Below, in pieces: positions 11,971 to 21,500 of a stretch of DNA of 64,000 nt. The DNA comes from Sneathiella chinensis (GTDB lineage: Bacteria > Pseudomonadota > Alphaproteobacteria > Sneathiellales > Sneathiellaceae). Under the pieces are notes generated by a model. The model saw only the letters and a program-made list of their open reading frames with translations, had not been told where the DNA came from and did not search any database. Position 1 is the stretch's first letter. Every line of letters starts with the position of its first letter. Where the stretch lies: contig NZ_VNWN01000002.1 of assembly GCF_012720115.1 (NCBI RefSeq), forward strand, positions 682,001 to 746,000, written 5' to 3'. The translations under genes and the position numbers were made by a program.

Positions 11971-12722
11971 TGCCCCGCTACAGGATTACCATCGAGTATG
12001 ACGGCCGCCATCTGGTCGGTTGGCAACGGCAGGTCAATGGCCCGTCGGTGCAGCAGCATATTGAGGAAGGCATCCTGAAATTCTGCGGCGAGGATATCCG
12101 CATTCAGGGCGCCGGGCGCACGGATGCGGGGGTCCATGCCCTTGGGCAGGTGGCCAGTTTTGACCTGACGCGGGATTTCGAGCCGCGCACCGTCATGAAT
12201 GCCATCAACCAGCATATGAAACCGGCCCCGGTTGTCATTCTGGACTGTGAGCGGGTGGACGAGGAATTCAACGCCCGCTTTTCCGCGACGGGACGGCATT
12301 ACCTGTATCGCATGATCAATCGTCCGGCCCGCCTGACCCTTGACAAGGGGTTTGCGTGGCACGTGAAAAAGGATCTCGATCACGAGGCCATGCACGATGC
12401 CGCCCAGGTTCTGGTGGGGAAACACGATTTTTCCAGCTTCCGGGCGGCGGCCTGTCAGGCCAACTCACCGATCAAGACCCTGACCCGGCTGGATGTCAGC
12501 CGATATGACGACGAGGTTCAGATCAGGGCGTCCGCCCCATCCTTCCTGCACAATCAGGTGCGGGCCATGGTGGGTAGCCTGTATCTGGTGGGCACCGGAC
12601 AATGGACCCGGCAGGATCTGGAACAGGCCCTTGCCGCACGGGATCGCCAGAAAGCGGGCCCCAATGCGCCGCCCTATGGCCTGTATCTGACGGATGTGGA
12701 TTACCCCGCCTACCCCAACTGA
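11970..12722 (+). CDS. truA: tRNA pseudouridine(38-40) synthase
   Basis: Makes pseudouridine at positions 38-40 of the tRNA anticodon arm. 250 residues; the catalytic aspartate is D52 in [14 protein letters not shown], and the N-terminal [12 protein letters not shown] is typical. Overlaps fmt by one base (TGATG), so translation is probably coupled. Its 3' end overlaps convergent astB by 13 bp. Confidence 0.95.
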
Positions 12723-14059
12723 AAATCATAGACGGCCCCAAGGCCGAGCAGGCTGGTCAGTTCGTCAAGGGCCTGCTGGCTGCCGACCAGAAGGTCCGGG
12801 TCTTTCAAATCGTCCGGGGAGAGCCTGTCCCGGTAGTGGGTCATGATCCAGCTTTTCAAATCCTCGTACAGCGTATCGGTCAGGAAGACACGCGGTGCGA
12901 TGGAATGTCCCGCTTCCTCGCTGAGGACAACACGAAGGCGCAGGCAGGCAGGACCGCCGCCGTTTTTCATGCTTTGGCGGATATCCAGATAGGTCACGCT
13001 TTGTACCGGGGTGCCCCGCGTCAGGAGTTTTTCCAGATAGCGGTGGACGTGGTGGTTTTCCCGGCATTCCAGCGGTGCAATTAGGTGCATGGTCTGGCGG
13101 GTTTCATCCAGACTGACAAGCTGGCTGTTGAACAGGTAGCTTTGTACCGCATCGGCCACGGAAACCTCGCTGCGGGGAACCTCGATGAAATGGAGCGATG
13201 TGCCGTGCAGGCGCGCCTGAAGGTCGCGCTGAAGTTGCTCCGGGTTCAGGAACGCATCCTGATGATAGAATAGGCACGGGCCGTTCCCGACAGCGATCAC
13301 GTCATTGTGGAACACGCCCTTGTCGATTACCTCCGGGTTCTGCTGGACAAACAGGGCATGTTCATCGGTCAGACCATGCAGGCGGGCGACAGCGCGGGAG
13401 GCTTCAAGGGTCTGGCGGGCGGGAAAGCGGTCCGGGTGTGGCAGGCGGCTGTCAAAGGCGGACCCGCCAAAGACAAACAACTCGACCCCCGGTTCCCCAT
13501 ATGAAGCACACAGCCGGGTATGGTTGGCCGCGCCTTCGTCACTGAAATGGGCGGTGCCGGGCAGGGCCGGATGATGAACGAAATAGGTCTCGTCCTCAAA
13601 GATGCGGCTTAACATGCGGCCCGTAACCTGGGGTTCCAGCGACCGGTGAAACATGGAGGCCAGATTGGCCGGTGTGAAATGGGTGCGTCCGTCCAGTGTA
13701 TCCGGGGCCGGGGAAACCGTGGCGGCATTGGCAACCCACATGCTGGACGCGGACGAAACCGCCGCCAGCAAATGCGGCGCCGTTTTCTGGACAAGGGCAA
13801 TGATATGGGCGTCCGATCCCTGATACCCCAAGGCCCGAAGGGTGGGAAGGTGGGGGCGCTCATGGGGCGGCAGGATGCCTTGTCGCAGGCCCATCTTCAT
13901 CAGGGAGTGCATTTTCTCCAGCCCCTGCAGGGCTGCCTGTCTGGGGTTGGAGATTTCAAGCGCATTCCCGGTGGAGGCCAGATTGCCATGGGACAGACCG
14001 GCGAAATTGTGCGTGGGCCCAACAAGACCGTCAAAGTTGGCTTCGTAATATATGGTCAT
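12710..14059 (-). CDS. astB: N-succinylarginine dihydrolase
   Basis: Second step of the arginine succinyltransferase pathway: succinylarginine to succinylornithine, CO2 and two ammonia. 449 residues, full length. The start [20 protein letters not shown], the histidine-rich segment [20 protein letters not shown], and the C-terminal [13 protein letters not shown] with the catalytic Cys are family hallmarks. It is the last gene of the leftward ast operon; its ATG overlaps the astD stop as ATGA. Confidence 0.95.
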
Positions 14060-15525
14060 AGGATCATTCCCGGTGGCAGGGTTTCAGGCAGATCAGGGCT
14101 GTCGGCCTCAAGCGAGGCGACGGGATAGGCGCAATAGTCGGCTGCGTAATAGGCGCTGGGCCGGTGGTTGCCGCTTTTCCCGATGCCGCCAAACGGGGCC
14201 GCGCCGCTGGCCCCGGTCAAGGGACGGTTCCAGTTGACGATGCCAGCGCGGATTTCTGTGCGGAACCGGTCATAAAGCGCCTTGTCATCGGTGAAGATGC
14301 CAGCCGACAGGCCATAGGCCGTGGCGTTGGCCTCGGTCATGGCGGCATCAAAATTGTCCATATGGATAACCTGCAGGAAGGGGCCGAAATATTCCCGGTC
14401 GGGCCGGTCCCGGATCGCCGTGACATCCATGATCCCGGGGCTGAGATAGGGCAGGCCCGGAACAAGGCGCTTCATTTCAAGCAGGGGGCGTCCGCCTTCC
14501 TCTTGCAGATGCGTTTGCGTGGCCAGCAGGCTGTCTGCGGCGTCATTGGAAATGAGGGACCCCATAAAGGGTTCCTGTCCATCCGCTTGCGGCCCGACCA
14601 GCAATCTTTCCGCCGCCTGTACAAGGGTATCCAGAAAGGCGGCGGTGTCCGGCCCTTTCGGCAGGATCAGGCGCCGGGCGCAGGTGCATCGCTGGCCCGC
14701 AGTCAGGAAGGCAGATTGAAGCGTATGACAAACGGCCCCCTTTATGCGGGATGTTTTGGTCACGATCAGGGGATTGTTGCCGCCCATTTCCAGGGCCAGT
14801 ATTTTTTCAGGATGACCGGAAAACTGTCTGTGCAGTTCGCTTCCGGTCGCGGAACTGCCGGTAAAGAACAATCCGTCCAGTTGCGGATGGTTGCTGAGGG
14901 CGACGCCTGTCTGGGTTTGCCCCTGCACAAGATTGAGAACCCCGTCCGGCAGCCCCGCCTTTTCCCAGCATTGAACCATTTTTTCCGCAACCGCAGGCGT
15001 TTGTTCGCTGGGTTTGAAGACAACTGAGTTCCCCGCCAACAGGGCGGGAACCATATGGCCGTTTGGCAGGTGGCCGGGAAAATTGAACGGGCCAAAGACG
15101 GCGACGACCCCGTGGGGGCGGTGGCGCAATCGGGCGGTGGCGCCGGGCAGGCTGGTTTCCTGTTCGCCTGTGCGGTCGTGATAGGCGCGGATGGACAGTT
15201 CGATCTTGCCGATCATGGTGGCAACCTCGGTCCGGGATTCCCACAAGGGTTTGCCCGTTTCAAGGGCGATCAGGGCGGCGATTTCCTCTTTGTCCGTTTC
15301 CAGTTCCTTCCGGTATCGGGCCAGCAGGTCCAACCGGAAGGAAAGAGGGCGCCGGGACCATGGGCCAAAGGCCTGCCTTGCCGCCGTGAGGCTTCTGTCG
15401 ATATCGGCGCTGGAGGCGGCGGCCCCTTCCCAGACGATGACCTCGGTTCCGGGGGAGCGGGAGACAAAAGGTGAGGCGGTCCCTTCCACCCATTGGCCGC
15501 CGATAAATAGATGTCCTCGTGTCAT
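14056..15525 (-). CDS. astD: succinylglutamate-semialdehyde dehydrogenase
   Basis: NAD-dependent oxidation of succinylglutamate semialdehyde to succinylglutamate, the fourth AST step. 489 residues of the aldehyde dehydrogenase superfamily: FGPFNFPGHLPNGH, the catalytic Glu in LALEMGGNNPL, and the nucleophilic Cys in TAGQRCTCARRL. Start at 15525 (MTRGHLFIGG) is preceded by GAGGAG; an upstream in-frame start at 15600 lies inside astA. Overlaps astB by 4 bp. Confidence 0.93.
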   Translation of the reverse strand: MTRGHLFIGGQWVEGTASPFVSRSPGTEVIVWEGAAASSADIDRSLTAARQAFGPWSRRPLSFRLDLLARYRKELETDKEEIAALIALETGKPLWESRTEVATMIGKIELSIRAYHDRTGEQETSLPGATARLRHRPHGVVAVFGPFNFPGHLPNGHMVPALLAGNSVVFKPSEQTPAVAEKMVQCWEKAGLPDGVLNLVQGQTQTGVALSNHPQLDGLFFTGSSATGSELHRQFSGHPEKILALEMGGNNPLIVTKTSRIKGAVCHTLQSAFLTAGQRCTCARRLILPKGPDTAAFLDTLVQAAERLLVGPQADGQEPFMGSLISNDAADSLLATQTHLQEEGGRPLLEMKRLVPGLPYLSPGIMDVTAIRDRPDREYFGPFLQVIHMDNFDAAMTEANATAYGLSAGIFTDDKALYDRFRTEIRAGIVNWNRPLTGASGAAPFGGIGKSGNHRPSAYYAADYCAYPVASLEADSPDLPETLPPGMIL

Positions 15526-15535
15526 GTCAGGCTCC

Positions 15536-16558
15536 TCATGGGGCAAAGCTGATGCGGTCAAGGGGCTGGACCTGCAGGTGCCGGGCGGTTTCCTCGCCAA
15601 TGACAGCCTGCCCGTCCCCGTCGATCCGCAAGGGTTGGCAAACCAGCCGATAGGATGTCAGGTTTCCGTTGCTGATGATGTAGGGCGTCTCGGCCCCGAT
15701 TTCCCTGTCGGGAACAATCCGGCCAACCGGGTGATGCGCGGTCTGGCGCAGGGTCTGGATGTTGACCCGCTGGCATTGCACCGTGGGGCCGCCATCAAAG
15801 ATGTCGATATACCCCGCATTGCGAAACCCTTCCTTTTCCAAAAGCGACAGGGCAGGCCTTGACGCATCATGGGGCTTGCCGATCGCATGGCGCGCCTCTT
15901 CGGGGAGCAGGTCCACGTAAATCGGGTGGCGGGGCATCAGGTCGGTAATGAACTGGTTGCCCTTCACCGCGCTCATGTAATCCGCATTCTCGAAACCCAG
16001 CCCGAAAAACTTGCGGCCCAGATGCTCCCAGAACGGGGATTTTCCAGCGGCATTCTGCCAGCCTCGCATCTCGGCGATGATGGTGTCCCCGAAGCGTTCC
16101 GGAAAGTCGGCCAATAACAGAAACCGGCTGCGGGACAGAAAGCGTCCGTTTCCATCCCGCCGATAGTCCGGGCTGAGATAAAGGGAGCCGATTTCCGTGC
16201 AGCCGGTGTAGTCATTGACCAGATAGAGAACCCCCATGGTGTTCTTCTTGCCAAGCTCTGCCGAGTGGGACACAAGGGTGGAGACCTTGTAGGAATAAAA
16301 GGGCTGGTCCAGCCCGACGCCCGCATAGACGGCGGCGGTGCCGACAATCTGGTCCGTCTCCCCATCCACCATGACAAGGAAATAGATTTCCCCTTCCGGG
16401 GCGGTGACACGTTTGGAAAAGCTTTGCTCGCTGACGCTCAGTTTATGCTGCCATGTCTGCCTGTCGGTGGGCATGGAGGACATGCCGCTGCCAACCGCGT
16501 TTGATATGCGCATCAATGTCTCGATATCGGCGGGGGTGGCCGGGCGCATATAGATCAT
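15536..16558 (-). CDS. astA: arginine N-succinyltransferase
   Basis: Commits arginine to the AST pathway by succinylating its alpha-amino group with succinyl-CoA. 340 residues with the expected start MIYMRPATPADIETLMRIS and the family segments YSYKVSTLVSHSAELG and GFENADYMSAVKGNQFI. Single-subunit form. The ATG at 16558 overlaps the stop of the upstream hydrolase as ATGA; a longer in-frame start at 16753 lies wholly inside that gene and is rejected. 10 bp separate it from astD. Confidence 0.94.
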   Translation of the reverse strand: MIYMRPATPADIETLMRISNAVGSGMSSMPTDRQTWQHKLSVSEQSFSKRVTAPEGEIYFLVMVDGETDQIVGTAAVYAGVGLDQPFYSYKVSTLVSHSAELGKKNTMGVLYLVNDYTGCTEIGSLYLSPDYRRDGNGRFLSRSRFLLLADFPERFGDTIIAEMRGWQNAAGKSPFWEHLGRKFFGLGFENADYMSAVKGNQFITDLMPRHPIYVDLLPEEARHAIGKPHDASRPALSLLEKEGFRNAGYIDIFDGGPTVQCQRVNIQTLRQTAHHPVGRIVPDREIGAETPYIISNGNLTSYRLVCQPLRIDGDGQAVIGEETARHLQVQPLDRISFAP

Positions 16559-17784
16559 GATGGTCTCTCCCGTTCGGGGAAGGGGCTGGCGCCTGATGCC
16601 AGTTTCAACAGGATCAGCGCGGTCAGCTTCGCCCGTTCGGTCAGGCTGTCCTTGATCATATATTCCTCGGCGGAATGGATATGGGCACCGCGTACGCCAA
16701 GGGTATCCACCGTGGGCAGGCCGGTTGCCGCCATGTTGTTGCCATCGCAGCATCCGCCTGTGGGCTGGTCGGACAGGGACAGGCCAAGGTCCCTGCCGCA
16801 GTCCTGCACCAGATCAAGCAACTGGCGAAGACCGGGTGTCATGGCTTTTGGCGGGCGACTGAAACGGCCATGCAGGGTGACCTGAATGCCGTCCTGCCGG
16901 TTTGCGTTGGTGACCAGATGATCCAGCCTCGCCTGAAACCAGTTCTGATCCGCCGGTTCCTGCATGCGCACATTCAGGCGCAGAATGGCAAGGTCGGGAA
17001 CCACATTCAAGGCACCGCCGCCTTCCACCTTGCCCATATTGACGGTAAGGCCGGGACGGCCACCGTTCAGCGCATCCAGTTCAAGTGTCAGGCGGGCGGC
17101 TGCGGTGATGGCGTTTCGCCCCAGATGAGGTTCCCGTCCTGCATGGGCGCTCCTCCCTCTGACAACCAAGGTGAAATTGCCGCTGCCTTTTCGGGCCCCG
17201 ACCAGTGTGCCATCCGGCAGAGACGGTTCAAACCCAAGGCCCACATGGGCGCGGGTGGCGCTTTCCGCTATCAGGTGGGCAGACCCGAAGGAGCCGGTTT
17301 CCTCGTCCCCGTTGATCAGGACTTCCCACCCGATCCTGTCGGCAACCGGGCTGGCCTCAAAGGCGCGGAGGGCGGCAAACATCACCAGAAGGCCACCTTT
17401 CATGTCGGCGACGCCGGGGCCTTGCAACCGACCATCCCCAAGGTCCGTGCAGGTCTGGAACAGATCGTCGGCAGGGAAGACCGTATCCATATGCCCGACC
17501 AGAAGAACCTGACGATCGGCCGCCGGACGCTTTCGGATGCGCAAGATCTGACCTGCAGTCTGGTGCTGGGTGGCCCCGCCGGATGTCACAATTTGCAGGG
17601 GGGCGGCTTCGATCAGTTCGGCGGTGCCGCCAAGAGGGTGAAAGGTTTGCGTCAATTGCCGGGCCATGGTGGCCAGCCCTTCCCGGTGTGTGCTGCCCGA
17701 ATTGATCATGGCCCATTCCTCAAGAAGGGAGAGGAGGGAGGCGCGGCTTTGGTCGATCCGGGACAGGAGGGGTTGGTAATCCAT
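16555..17784 (-). CDS. M20 family metallohydrolase inside the ast operon
   Basis: A 409-residue di-zinc hydrolase of the M20 family (ArgE/DapE/carboxypeptidase G2 type). Metal ligands are visible: H98 and D100 in VGHMDTVFP, D127 in GVADMKGG, E161/E162 in GDEETGSFG, and a late His in GVRGAHIHSAEEY. It is sandwiched between astC (4 bp) and astA (4-bp overlap), so it is almost certainly co-translated with the pathway. The normal last enzyme, AstE (M14 fold, succinylglutamate to succinate plus glutamate), is not found anywhere in the window. I infer that this protein does the AstE step or hydrolyses a related N-acyl amino acid. The family assignment is firm, the substrate is not. Confidence 0.85.
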   Translation of the reverse strand: MDYQPLLSRIDQSRASLLSLLEEWAMINSGSTHREGLATMARQLTQTFHPLGGTAELIEAAPLQIVTSGGATQHQTAGQILRIRKRPAADRQVLLVGHMDTVFPADDLFQTCTDLGDGRLQGPGVADMKGGLLVMFAALRAFEASPVADRIGWEVLINGDEETGSFGSAHLIAESATRAHVGLGFEPSLPDGTLVGARKGSGNFTLVVRGRSAHAGREPHLGRNAITAAARLTLELDALNGGRPGLTVNMGKVEGGGALNVVPDLAILRLNVRMQEPADQNWFQARLDHLVTNANRQDGIQVTLHGRFSRPPKAMTPGLRQLLDLVQDCGRDLGLSLSDQPTGGCCDGNNMAATGLPTVDTLGVRGAHIHSAEEYMIKDSLTERAKLTALILLKLASGASPFPERERPS

Positions 17785-17788
17785 GGCC

Positions 17789-18970
17789 TTACCCGGATTG
17801 CCAATCGGTCAGGACAGTGTCCATGAGGGTGAGGGCCTGATCAATTTCTGCGGTCGAGACATTCAGCGGCGGCAGCAGGCGAAGAATGTCCGATCCGGCC
17901 CGCCCGGTCAGAAGCCCGGCCTCCCGCAGGCAGTCCAGCAGGCGGGTGTTGGAAATGTGGGTTTGCAGGCCCAGCATCAACCCGCGCCCCCGAACACCGG
18001 CCAGCTTGTCCGGATGGCGGGTGACCAGTGCCTCCAGTGCGCCTTTCAGATACTGGCCGCGCTCATAGACCGTTTCCAGAAATCCTTCGGCCAGAACCAG
18101 ATCAAGAACAGCATTGCCAACATTGGTTGCCAGCGGGTTCCCGCCAAAGGTCGAACCGTGGGTGCCGACAATCATGCAGGCGGATACCTGCTCCGTTGCG
18201 AGGCAGGCCCCGATCGGAAAGCCGCCCCCCAGCCCCTTGGCAGAGGCCAGAATGTCTGGCTTGATCTGGTCCCATTCATGAGCAAACAGTTTTCCCGTCC
18301 GTCCCATGCCGCACTGGATTTCGTCAACCATGAACAGGGTTCCAGTCTGACTGCAAAGGTCTCGCACCGCCTTCAGGTATCCATCCGGGGCGGGCATGAT
18401 GCCGCCTTCCCCCTGAATGGGTTCAAGGATGATCCCGGCTGTTTTGTCGGTAACGGCTTCCTGCAACGCATCAATATCGCCAAAGGGCACATGATCAAAC
18501 CCCATATCGCCCTCGAAAAACCCCTTGGTGTGGGCCGGGTTCCCGGCGGCGGCAATGGTGGCAATGGTGCGCCCGTGGAAGGCGTTATGCATTCCGATAA
18601 TACGGCTTCGGTGCGGTTGCCCCCTGTCATAGTGATAGCGGCGCATCATCTTCAGGCCCGCTTCTACGGCCTCGGCCCCGGAATTGCAGAAAAAGACACG
18701 GTCGGCAAAGCTGTTGTCCGTAAGGCGGCGGGCCAGTTTTTCTGCCCCCTCTACCCGGAACATGTTGGAACTGTGCCAGTATTTGTCGGTCTGTTCTTTC
18801 AGGGCGGCCACAAGATGGGGGTGTTCATGACCAAAGGCGGTTACGGCAATGCCGGAAATGAAATCAAGATAGCGATCCCCTTCCCGGGTGATCAGCCACG
18901 ATCCTTCGCCCCGTTCAAAAAGAATATCCGGCGGGGCGTAGGTTGCCATCAATGCGTTGCTGTCTGTCAT
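17789..18970 (-). CDS. astC: succinylornithine/acetylornithine aminotransferase
   Basis: A class III PLP aminotransferase, 393 residues, first gene of the ast operon. It moves the delta-amino group of succinylornithine to 2-oxoglutarate. Visible: GAEAVEAGLKMMRRYHY, HGRTIATIAAAGNPAHTKGF, LEPIQGEGGIMPA, the PLP region FMVDEIQCGMGRTGK, and the Schiff-base lysine in ASAKGLGGGFPIGA. Start at 18970 (MTDSNALMATY) has a perfect AGGAGG; an in-frame ATG at 19147 would add a non-conserved 59 residues. The same enzyme could serve as ArgD, and the operon decides the name. Confidence 0.9.
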   Translation of the reverse strand: MTDSNALMATYAPPDILFERGEGSWLITREGDRYLDFISGIAVTAFGHEHPHLVAALKEQTDKYWHSSNMFRVEGAEKLARRLTDNSFADRVFFCNSGAEAVEAGLKMMRRYHYDRGQPHRSRIIGMHNAFHGRTIATIAAAGNPAHTKGFFEGDMGFDHVPFGDIDALQEAVTDKTAGIILEPIQGEGGIMPAPDGYLKAVRDLCSQTGTLFMVDEIQCGMGRTGKLFAHEWDQIKPDILASAKGLGGGFPIGACLATEQVSACMIVGTHGSTFGGNPLATNVGNAVLDLVLAEGFLETVYERGQYLKGALEALVTRHPDKLAGVRGRGLMLGLQTHISNTRLLDCLREAGLLTGRAGSDILRLLPPLNVSTAEIDQALTLMDTVLTDWQSG

Positions 18971-19161: not shown

Positions 19162-19229
19162 AAAAGGGGCGCTTTATCTGCCCTTATTTCAGAATAGGAT
19201 ATGTCCGTACCGACTTTTTGGGGGGCAGT

Positions 19230-19715
19230 ATGGCCGAGAAACGATCTCTGGACCGGATTGACCAGAATATAATTTCGATTTTACAGAAGAACGCCCGTAT
19301 CAGTAACAAGGCCTTGGCGGAGCAGGTGGGCCTGTCCGCCAGTTCCTGCCTGAACCGGGTCCGCAAACTGGAGGAAGATGGCTGTATCGGTCCCTATCTT
19401 GGGCATGTGACGCTGGAACGGCTGTGCCGCTCGATCACCTGTATTGCCATGGTGACGCTGGAACATCATACCCAGCAGGATTTCCGAACCTTTGAGCAGT
19501 TCGTCCAGACCCTGCCGGAAGTGGTGCAATGCGACACGGTCAGCGGGTCCTGTGATTTCATCCTGCGGATCGTTTGCGCGGATATGGAACGATATCATCA
19601 GGTGAATGAATTGCTGCTGAATTCGGGGGCCAATGTGGTGAATATCAGCACCCATGTGGTGATGACTGAAAACAAGCGCTTTCAGGGCTTTCCGCTGAAC
19701 AGACTGTTGCCGTGA
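19230..19715 (+). CDS. Lrp/AsnC family transcriptional regulator
   Basis: A 161-residue Lrp-type regulator: winged HTH at about 10-60 (LDRIDQNIISILQKNARISN, then LSASSCLNRVRKLEEDG), and a RAM/ACT-like ligand domain from about 70. Divergent from the ast operon, so a role as arginine- or ornithine-responsive activator of ast is a reasonable inference. The ATG at 19230 follows a G-rich site; a TTG at 19218 is possible but less likely. Confidence 0.88.
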   Translation: MAEKRSLDRIDQNIISILQKNARISNKALAEQVGLSASSCLNRVRKLEEDGCIGPYLGHVTLERLCRSITCIAMVTLEHHTQQDFRTFEQFVQTLPEVVQCDTVSGSCDFILRIVCADMERYHQVNELLLNSGANVVNISTHVVMTENKRFQGFPLNRLLP

Positions 19716-20327: not shown

Positions 20328-21500
20328 TCAGTCCGCGAAATACCCTTCCAGTATGGAGGTGTAGATATCGGCCAGCATCTCGATATCCCCAACGGGGACA
20401 TGCTCGTCGATTTTGTGCATGGTCTGCCCGACAAGGCCAAATTCGACCACCGGGCAGTAGTTCTTGATGTACCGGGCATCGGATGTGCCGCCGGTGGTGG
20501 ACAGTTCCGGGCGGAGACCCACATGCTTTTCGATGGAGCCGGCCACCAGTTTGCTGAAGTCCCCTTCCTGTGTCAGGAACGGTTCCGAGTTTTTCAGAAC
20601 CTTCAGCGTATAGCTGGCGCCGCGTTCCGCCGCGATACCGTCCAGCAGGGCGCGGATTTTTTCGTCCAGACCGTCAAGGCTGTGATGGGTGTTGAACCGG
20701 ATATTGAACGTGGCCCGGGCAAATTTCGGGATCACATTGGTGGCCGGGTTGCCCACATCGGCGGTGGTGAATTCCAGATTACTGGGCTGGAAATGCTCGC
20801 TGCCGTCGTCCAGATGCATCTGGTCAAGCGCCTGCATCATGGCCACCAGATGGGGAACGGGGTTGTCCGCCAGATGGGGGTAGGCCACATGCCCTTCGGT
20901 GCCTTCCACCGTCAGGAAACCGGTGAAGGAGCCACGACGACCGATTTTCACCATTTCGCCCAGTTCATTGGGGTTGGTCGGCTCACCAACCACACAATGG
21001 TCGATATGCTCGCCCTGTTCGGACATCCATTCCAGAACCTTGCGGGTGCCGTTGATGGCGGGGCCTTCCTCGTCGCCGGTGATCAGCAGGCTGATGGAAC
21101 CGTCAAAGGCGCCCTTGCGGGATTTGACAAAGCGTTGGGCCGCTGCCGCAAAGCAGGCAACCGCTGCCTTCATGTCCGCTGCGCCGCGGCCATACAGCTT
21201 GCCGTCGCGGATAATGGAATCGAACGGGTCCACAGTCCACGCATGCAGATCCCCGGGGGGCACCACATCCGTATGACCCGCGAAACAGAAATTCGGGCCC
21301 TTGGTCCCGAAGCGGGCGTAAAGATTTTCAACATCTGGCGTATTGTCATCGGAAAAAACGAGGCGGTGACATTCAAAGCCGATTTTTTCAAGCGCCGCCT
21401 GAAGGACATTGAGGACCCCGGCATCCGTGGGGGTGACGCTGGGGCAGCGCATCAATTCCTGTGTCAGGTGGACGACATCAATTTCATCATTATAGCTCAT
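20328..21500 (-). CDS. dapE: succinyl-diaminopimelate desuccinylase
   Basis: Releases succinate from N-succinyl-LL-diaminopimelate in lysine and peptidoglycan precursor synthesis. 390 residues, M20 fold, with zinc ligands H76 and D78 ([11 protein letters not shown]), D109 (GRGAADMKA), E144/E145 (TGDEEGPA) and the late Met-His ([13 protein letters not shown]). Start at 21500 ([10 protein letters not shown]); the longer frame to 21893 runs into the divergent gene's upstream region. dapD, the preceding pathway step, lies 1.1 kb away. Confidence 0.95.

Follow-up and report, generated by a model that had tools for sequence, protein, structure and literature searches.

The 64,000-nt window of Sneathiella chinensis that we analyzed contains an AST operon, read leftward, with the gene order astC-M20-astA-astD-astB and without astE. 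The M20 gene (16555..17784, minus strand) is an intact ORF of 409 aa with an ATG start, and its reading frame, HMM matches, residues and context mark it as an M20 di-metal hydrolase (NF005602/PRK07338), which we propose to be the N-succinyl-L-glutamate desuccinylase. It lies 4 bp from the end of the astC-type gene (17789..18970, minus strand), and its stop shares 4 bp (16555-16558) with the start of astA (15536..16558, minus strand). If its ATG start is taken, astD (14056..15525, minus strand) begins 10 bp past astA (an alternative, longer TTG reading reaches 15600), and it overlaps astB (12710..14059, minus strand) by 4 bp. A gene for an Lrp/AsnC-type regulator (19218..19715, plus strand) is divergent from astC and may regulate the operon.

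The products of astB (N-succinylarginine dihydrolase; TIGR03241, 663 bits vs a cut-off of 538) and astD (succinylglutamate-semialdehyde dehydrogenase; TIGR03240, 743 vs 579) were identified by their HMMs. The astA product, an arginine (or ornithine) N-succinyltransferase, was assigned using the subfamily model TIGR03243 (391 vs 284) and falls below the cut-off of the AstA equivalog TIGR03244 (358 vs 391). The class-III aminotransferase in the astC position (succinylornithine/acetylornithine transaminase) is called astC by position alone, because argD models score it best (NF002325, 556 vs 372), while the astC model TIGR03246 gives only 403 vs 610; its ATG start was taken, and a longer TTG reading reaches 19147. 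Genes astA, astB, astD and an astC-type aminotransferase were therefore all found together, as the sequence-only reading of this DNA had described them, and its placement of the M20 gene, 4 bp from astC and with a 4-bp overlap with astA, agrees exactly with our coordinates. Upstream of astC, and ~1.4 kb from its start, is a genuine dapE, an M20 paralog at about 20328-21500 (minus strand; 447 vs 361.8 bits), and a dapE is also found near the operon in loci L003 and L118.

The M20 protein carries PF01546 and PF07687 (catalytic and dimerization domains), together with the M20 metal ligands H, D, E, E and H and the catalytic E. In the NCBIfam comparison, which covered 25 of the 51 families among the matches listed, it is a full member of NF005602/PRK07338 (555 bits vs a curated cut-off of 357), a model that is named only "hydrolase" and carries no function. 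It fails the equivalogs for ArgE (TIGR01892, 84.8 vs 297.7) and DapE (TIGR01246, 52.5 vs 361.8) and is below the cut-off of the glutamate carboxypeptidase subfamily NF004788 (215 vs 349). It is also outside the AstE family, as Pfam gives no PF24827 match and the best BLAST hit to E. coli AstE has an E value of 3.5, with no meaningful alignment.

We searched the whole 3.55 Mb assembly (19 contigs, 99.27% complete) for AstE. TIGR03242 gave no match at E <= 1 anywhere in the genome, with E. coli matched as the positive control, and the earlier description of an operon without AstE thus extends to the genome. Two proteins, L001 and L002, are above the cut-off of the AstE/AspA superfamily (PF24827), and we considered whether a distant member of this superfamily, of the L002 type, performs the AstE step, with the M20 protein as an accessory. 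We regard this as very unlikely. L001 is DoeB-like (TIGR02994, 396.6 bits, just short of the cut-off of 402.7), and its neighbors, examined by eye, are ORFs resembling ornithine cyclodeaminase and threonine dehydratase. L002 is a weak, unassigned PF24827 member (44.5 bits) and a marginal match to the AstE model (22 vs 170 bits), and it adjoins a LysR-type ORF (again by eye), not ast genes. Across 37 genomes with the M20 protein, 12 (including S. chinensis) have one or more PF24827 proteins, which could do the step there, but the other 25 have none at E <= 0.001. Given the whole-genome TIGR03242 result and the scores of L001 and L002, we rejected an AstE elsewhere in the S. chinensis genome.

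To place the gene among its relatives, we compared the best 80 of 164 loci in the genome collection that encode a relative of the M20 protein. At least one ast-type gene was present in 23 of the 26 closest loci (at least 44% identity), while none of the 54 more distant ones (at most 41% identity) had an ast gene beside it. No E. coli AstE-like sequence was found in the 26 closest loci, and AstE was above its cut-off in 0 of 20 genomes searched from this set; a SAR324 genome (L006) gave a 35-bit AstE fragment match. The arrangement of the window, with divergent Lrp followed by astC, M20, astA, astD and astB, recurs in 10 of the 36 loci laid out, and two more of the 36 have divergent Lrp, astC and M20. 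With a divergent Lrp homolog before astC in 12/36 M20 loci, arginine catabolism may be under the control of a regulator of the Lrp type. The sequence-only reading had suggested looking for this gene order in other alphaproteobacteria; the M20 gene is beside ast genes there, and also in Gammaproteobacteria and in one SAR324 genome.

The M20 gene is also retained where the operon is split. Nine genomes with M20 loci that lack a nearby astB were searched, and AstB was encoded elsewhere in seven and absent from G590 and G624. Nitrococcus has an M20-astA pair (L025) apart from astD-astB-astC (L150). G590 (L148) has M20-astA-astD, no AstB in the genome, and an agmatinase-family gene ~0.6 kb away; this indicates that M20 goes with the shared late steps there, and the layout might suit entry into the pathway through ornithine. 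A search of 72,556 plasmid records found five that hold a relative (E <= 1e-60), two of them with annotation over the stretch concerned, from Sphingomonas and Legionella adelaidensis. Both call the protein "hydrolase", and its gene precedes those for arginine N-succinyltransferase and N-succinylarginine dihydrolase. In three Sphingopyxis loci (L011, L013 and L015), the M20 gene has no ast genes beside it; the L011 copy is near ORFs resembling threonine dehydratase and a methyltransferase (by eye). These were rejected as counter-examples and considered second copies, because each genome has another M20 stretch, partly within the fetched piece, adjoining astA (L157, L152 and L153).

Co-occurrence was assessed in a phylum sample of 398 Pseudomonadota genomes and a class sample of 240 Alphaproteobacteria, which overlap in at least G000, G012, G063, G110, G145 and G183. 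In the phylum sample, with thresholds of E <= 1e-85 for M20 (all above the NF005602 cut-off) and E <= 1e-10 for AstE, AstB was found in 102 genomes, M20 in 36 and AstE in 77 (58 above cut-off). AstB was accompanied by M20 in 35/102 genomes, by AstE in 65/102 and by neither in 2/102; M20 and AstE were found together in 0/398. M20 without AstB occurred once (G590), and AstE without AstB 12 times. Where M20 and AstB co-occur, astB is within 3.2 kb of the M20 gene in 32/35 genomes and on another contig in the other 3. Fisher p values for these associations are extreme but take no account of relatedness. A chance neighborhood of M20 and ast genes was rejected given the co-occurrence across the phylum and the comparison of loci.

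Among AstB-bearing Alphaproteobacteria of the phylum sample, 33/35 have M20 and 0/35 have AstE, so the M20-for-AstE arrangement is wider than earlier supposed; M20 and AstB occur together in two genomes outside this class (G427 and G524). Because no AstE was found in the sampled Alphaproteobacteria, the mutual exclusion of AstE and M20 is partly confounded by phylogeny. In the class sample, AstB was above its cut-off in 9 of 240 genomes and M20 in 6, all within those 9. The six M20 proteins scored 552-573 bits, over the cut-off, and the next best scored 255. TIGR03242 was above its cut-off in 0 of the 11 class-sample genomes given, including all nine with AstB; G168 had one partial 24-bit match. 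Within the genus Sneathiella, G000 and G168 have both M20 and AstB and G041 has neither.

Four genomes have AstB above its cut-off and neither M20 nor AstE: G110 and G571 in the phylum sample and G116 and G220 in the class sample (G110 belongs to both). G116 (L115) and G220 (L116) have astA-astD-astB clusters, with neither AstE nor M20 found in the genome, and genomes of this type may have a third desuccinylase. In G571 (L149) and G110 (L117), the stretch fetched around the AstB homolog has no further ast genes. We listed the ORFs around astB in these four genomes and checked four neighbors in three of them by Pfam or by reading, and among these saw no obvious candidate to replace the desuccinylase. 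Of the twelve phylum-sample genomes with an AstE-like protein and no AstB, 8 belong to genus g296, and in 9 the protein is below the AstE cut-off; these proteins possibly act on another N-acyl substrate.

In a quick tree of 81 rows, which carried a long-branch warning, the M20 proteins linked to AST group in a single clade with SH-aLRT support of 100. We also built a tree of AstB with 45 rows, of which 26 are M20-type, 17 AstE-type and 2 have neither; it left out L117, L149, L004, L008, L155-L158 and AstB matches of at most 390 aa. On this tree the M20 label needs 4 changes, and supported branches force 3. M20-type rows L006 and L009 are nested among AstE-type rows; both come from metagenome-derived genomes, so the absence of AstE is less secure in L006, with its fragment match, and in L009, whose genome is 1.3 Mb. 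The tree gives 3-4 independent pairs, with 3 on supported branches and an average of 2.8/3 in the expected direction; with so few pairs, a sign test lacks significance. On balance, we favor the view that this clade represents a second type of desuccinylase dedicated to succinylglutamate, which in Alphaproteobacteria is the standard enzyme for the final AST step and which was exchanged several times with AstE in Pseudomonadota. In that case, G116 and G220 would hold a third solution.

The AlphaFold model of the M20 protein has a mean pLDDT of 94.2 and a pTM of 0.91. Carboxypeptidase G2 (CPG2) is the closest solved protein by sequence (E = 9.7e-31) and also by fold, as the top Foldseek hit and with a VIA-align Z of 45 (the next protein has a Z of 37); 383-384 residues align with an rmsd of 4.3 and about 27% identity. 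CPG2 releases C-terminal glutamate from N-acyl conjugates (N-acylglutamates), which is the chemistry that the proposed succinylglutamate step requires. Sequence and predicted fold thus both point to a glutamate-releasing N-acyl hydrolase.

We compared residues between 55 AST-clade proteins and 75 outgroup M20s, leaving out the duplicates L118-L122, the truncated L027, L008 (which runs off its contig end) and outgroup rows of at most 360 aa. H98, D127, E161, E162, E186 and H370 are invariant in the AST clade (55/55), as are R198, H214, N260, R273 and R310. Nine positions reach at least 97% conservation within the clade but stay below 20% in the outgroup: G70, A126, G152 and six polar residues. 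The polar residues N28, R217, K313, C346 and T361 (100% each) and N350 (98%) reach at most 5% in the outgroup, and all six recur in five further full-length sequences (L175, L176, L179, L180 and L181). R310 also occurs in 61% of the 75 outgroup proteins, and the glutamate pocket that we propose is thus not confined to the clade.

R198, H214, N260 and R273 align with residues of the window's own DapE. Passages of two papers on H. influenzae DapE place Arg178, His194, Asn244/245 and Arg258 where the substrate or a sulfate is bound (PMC5919655, PMC4012986). Judging by motif, the residues of the window's DapE probably correspond to these. R310 aligns with CPG2 Arg324, where DapE has a serine. In CPG2, Arg324 holds the glutamate, and Lys208 and Ser210 contact the substrate; the latter two are not conserved in the M20 protein. 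The metal ligands, base, H229, N275 and R324 of CPG2 have conserved counterparts in the M20 protein, but CPG2 differs at the positions of N28, R217, K313, C346, N350 and T361.

Considering the place in the operon, the absence of AstE, the mutual exclusion, the retention of M20 when the operon is split and the conserved metal and catalytic residues, the M20 protein is very probably the N-succinyl-L-glutamate desuccinylase of the AST pathway and a non-orthologous displacement of AstE. The sequence-only reading had proposed such a displacement, and the missing AstE, the exclusion and the CPG2-like fold all favor it. Elsewhere, desuccinylation of succinylglutamate is carried out by the M14-like AstE. 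The M20 protein would hydrolyze the amide of N2-succinyl-L-glutamate, the product of AstD, to succinate and L-glutamate. It is predicted to be a dimeric two-zinc enzyme, with metals held by H98, D127, E162, E186 and H370 and with E161 as the base. H214 from the partner subunit would polarize the amide carbonyl, N260, R198 and R273 would hold the alpha-carboxylate, and R310 (at the CPG2 R324 position) and K313 would hold the glutamate side chain. R217, with N350/N28, may read the succinyl carboxylate. These pocket roles were assigned by alignment.

Even less probable than a distant AstE/AspA protein is a reading in which the M20 protein accompanies the operon as an N-acetylornithine deacetylase of the ArgE type or as an additional DapE. 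ArgE and DapE do belong to the M20 enzymes, and the neighboring aminotransferase has its best scores with argD models; however, the M20 protein misses both equivalogs by far and its occurrence tracks AstB. ArgJ is present in 34/37 M20 genomes, including S. chinensis (it is absent from G490, G590 and G427), making an ArgE role unneeded in those genomes. We rejected both roles given the model scores, the separate dapE and ArgJ. Least probable of all is desuccinylation of an earlier intermediate (succinylarginine or succinylornithine) as a shunt or detoxification: the bond type is identical and members of the M20 family act on a variety of N-acyl amino acids, but the pathway would be futile, its last step would be without an enzyme, and R310 and K313 would suit an acidic rather than a basic side chain.

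We return to the M20 protein as the probable desuccinylase, and file it as a known pathway (AST) with its last step done by another fold. The proposed reaction and operon role are identical to those of AstE/AruE (TIGR03242, M14-like fold), but the sequences are unrelated (PF24827 vs PF01546/PF07687). DapE has the fold and the succinyl-amide chemistry in common with the M20 protein but differs at the R310 position, and the M20 protein is far below the DapE cut-offs. As a member of NF005602/PRK07338, it belongs to a family for which a function is newly proposed here. Among the titles and abstracts of the matches listed from open-access full text, we found no report of an M20 protein as AstE or of a missing AstE in Alphaproteobacteria. 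PRK07338 was not mentioned in the open-access full-text literature searched, and the term succinylglutamate was not found in the main text of PMC9007349.

Strong genomic evidence suggests that in S. chinensis and many of its relatives an unrelated "hydrolase", with an activity that we infer, has taken the place of the enzyme that ends the AST pathway. If so, a large bacterial group would gain the step now lacking at the end of textbook arginine catabolism, a family named only "hydrolase" in NCBIfam and in the RefSeq-derived plasmid records examined would gain a function, and a single reaction would offer a case of exchange between two metalloenzyme folds that are unrelated. Caulobacter vibrioides, a model organism that we included as a control genome, carries AstB and an M20 protein above the cut-off, without AstE, so that the proposal can be put to a direct test there.
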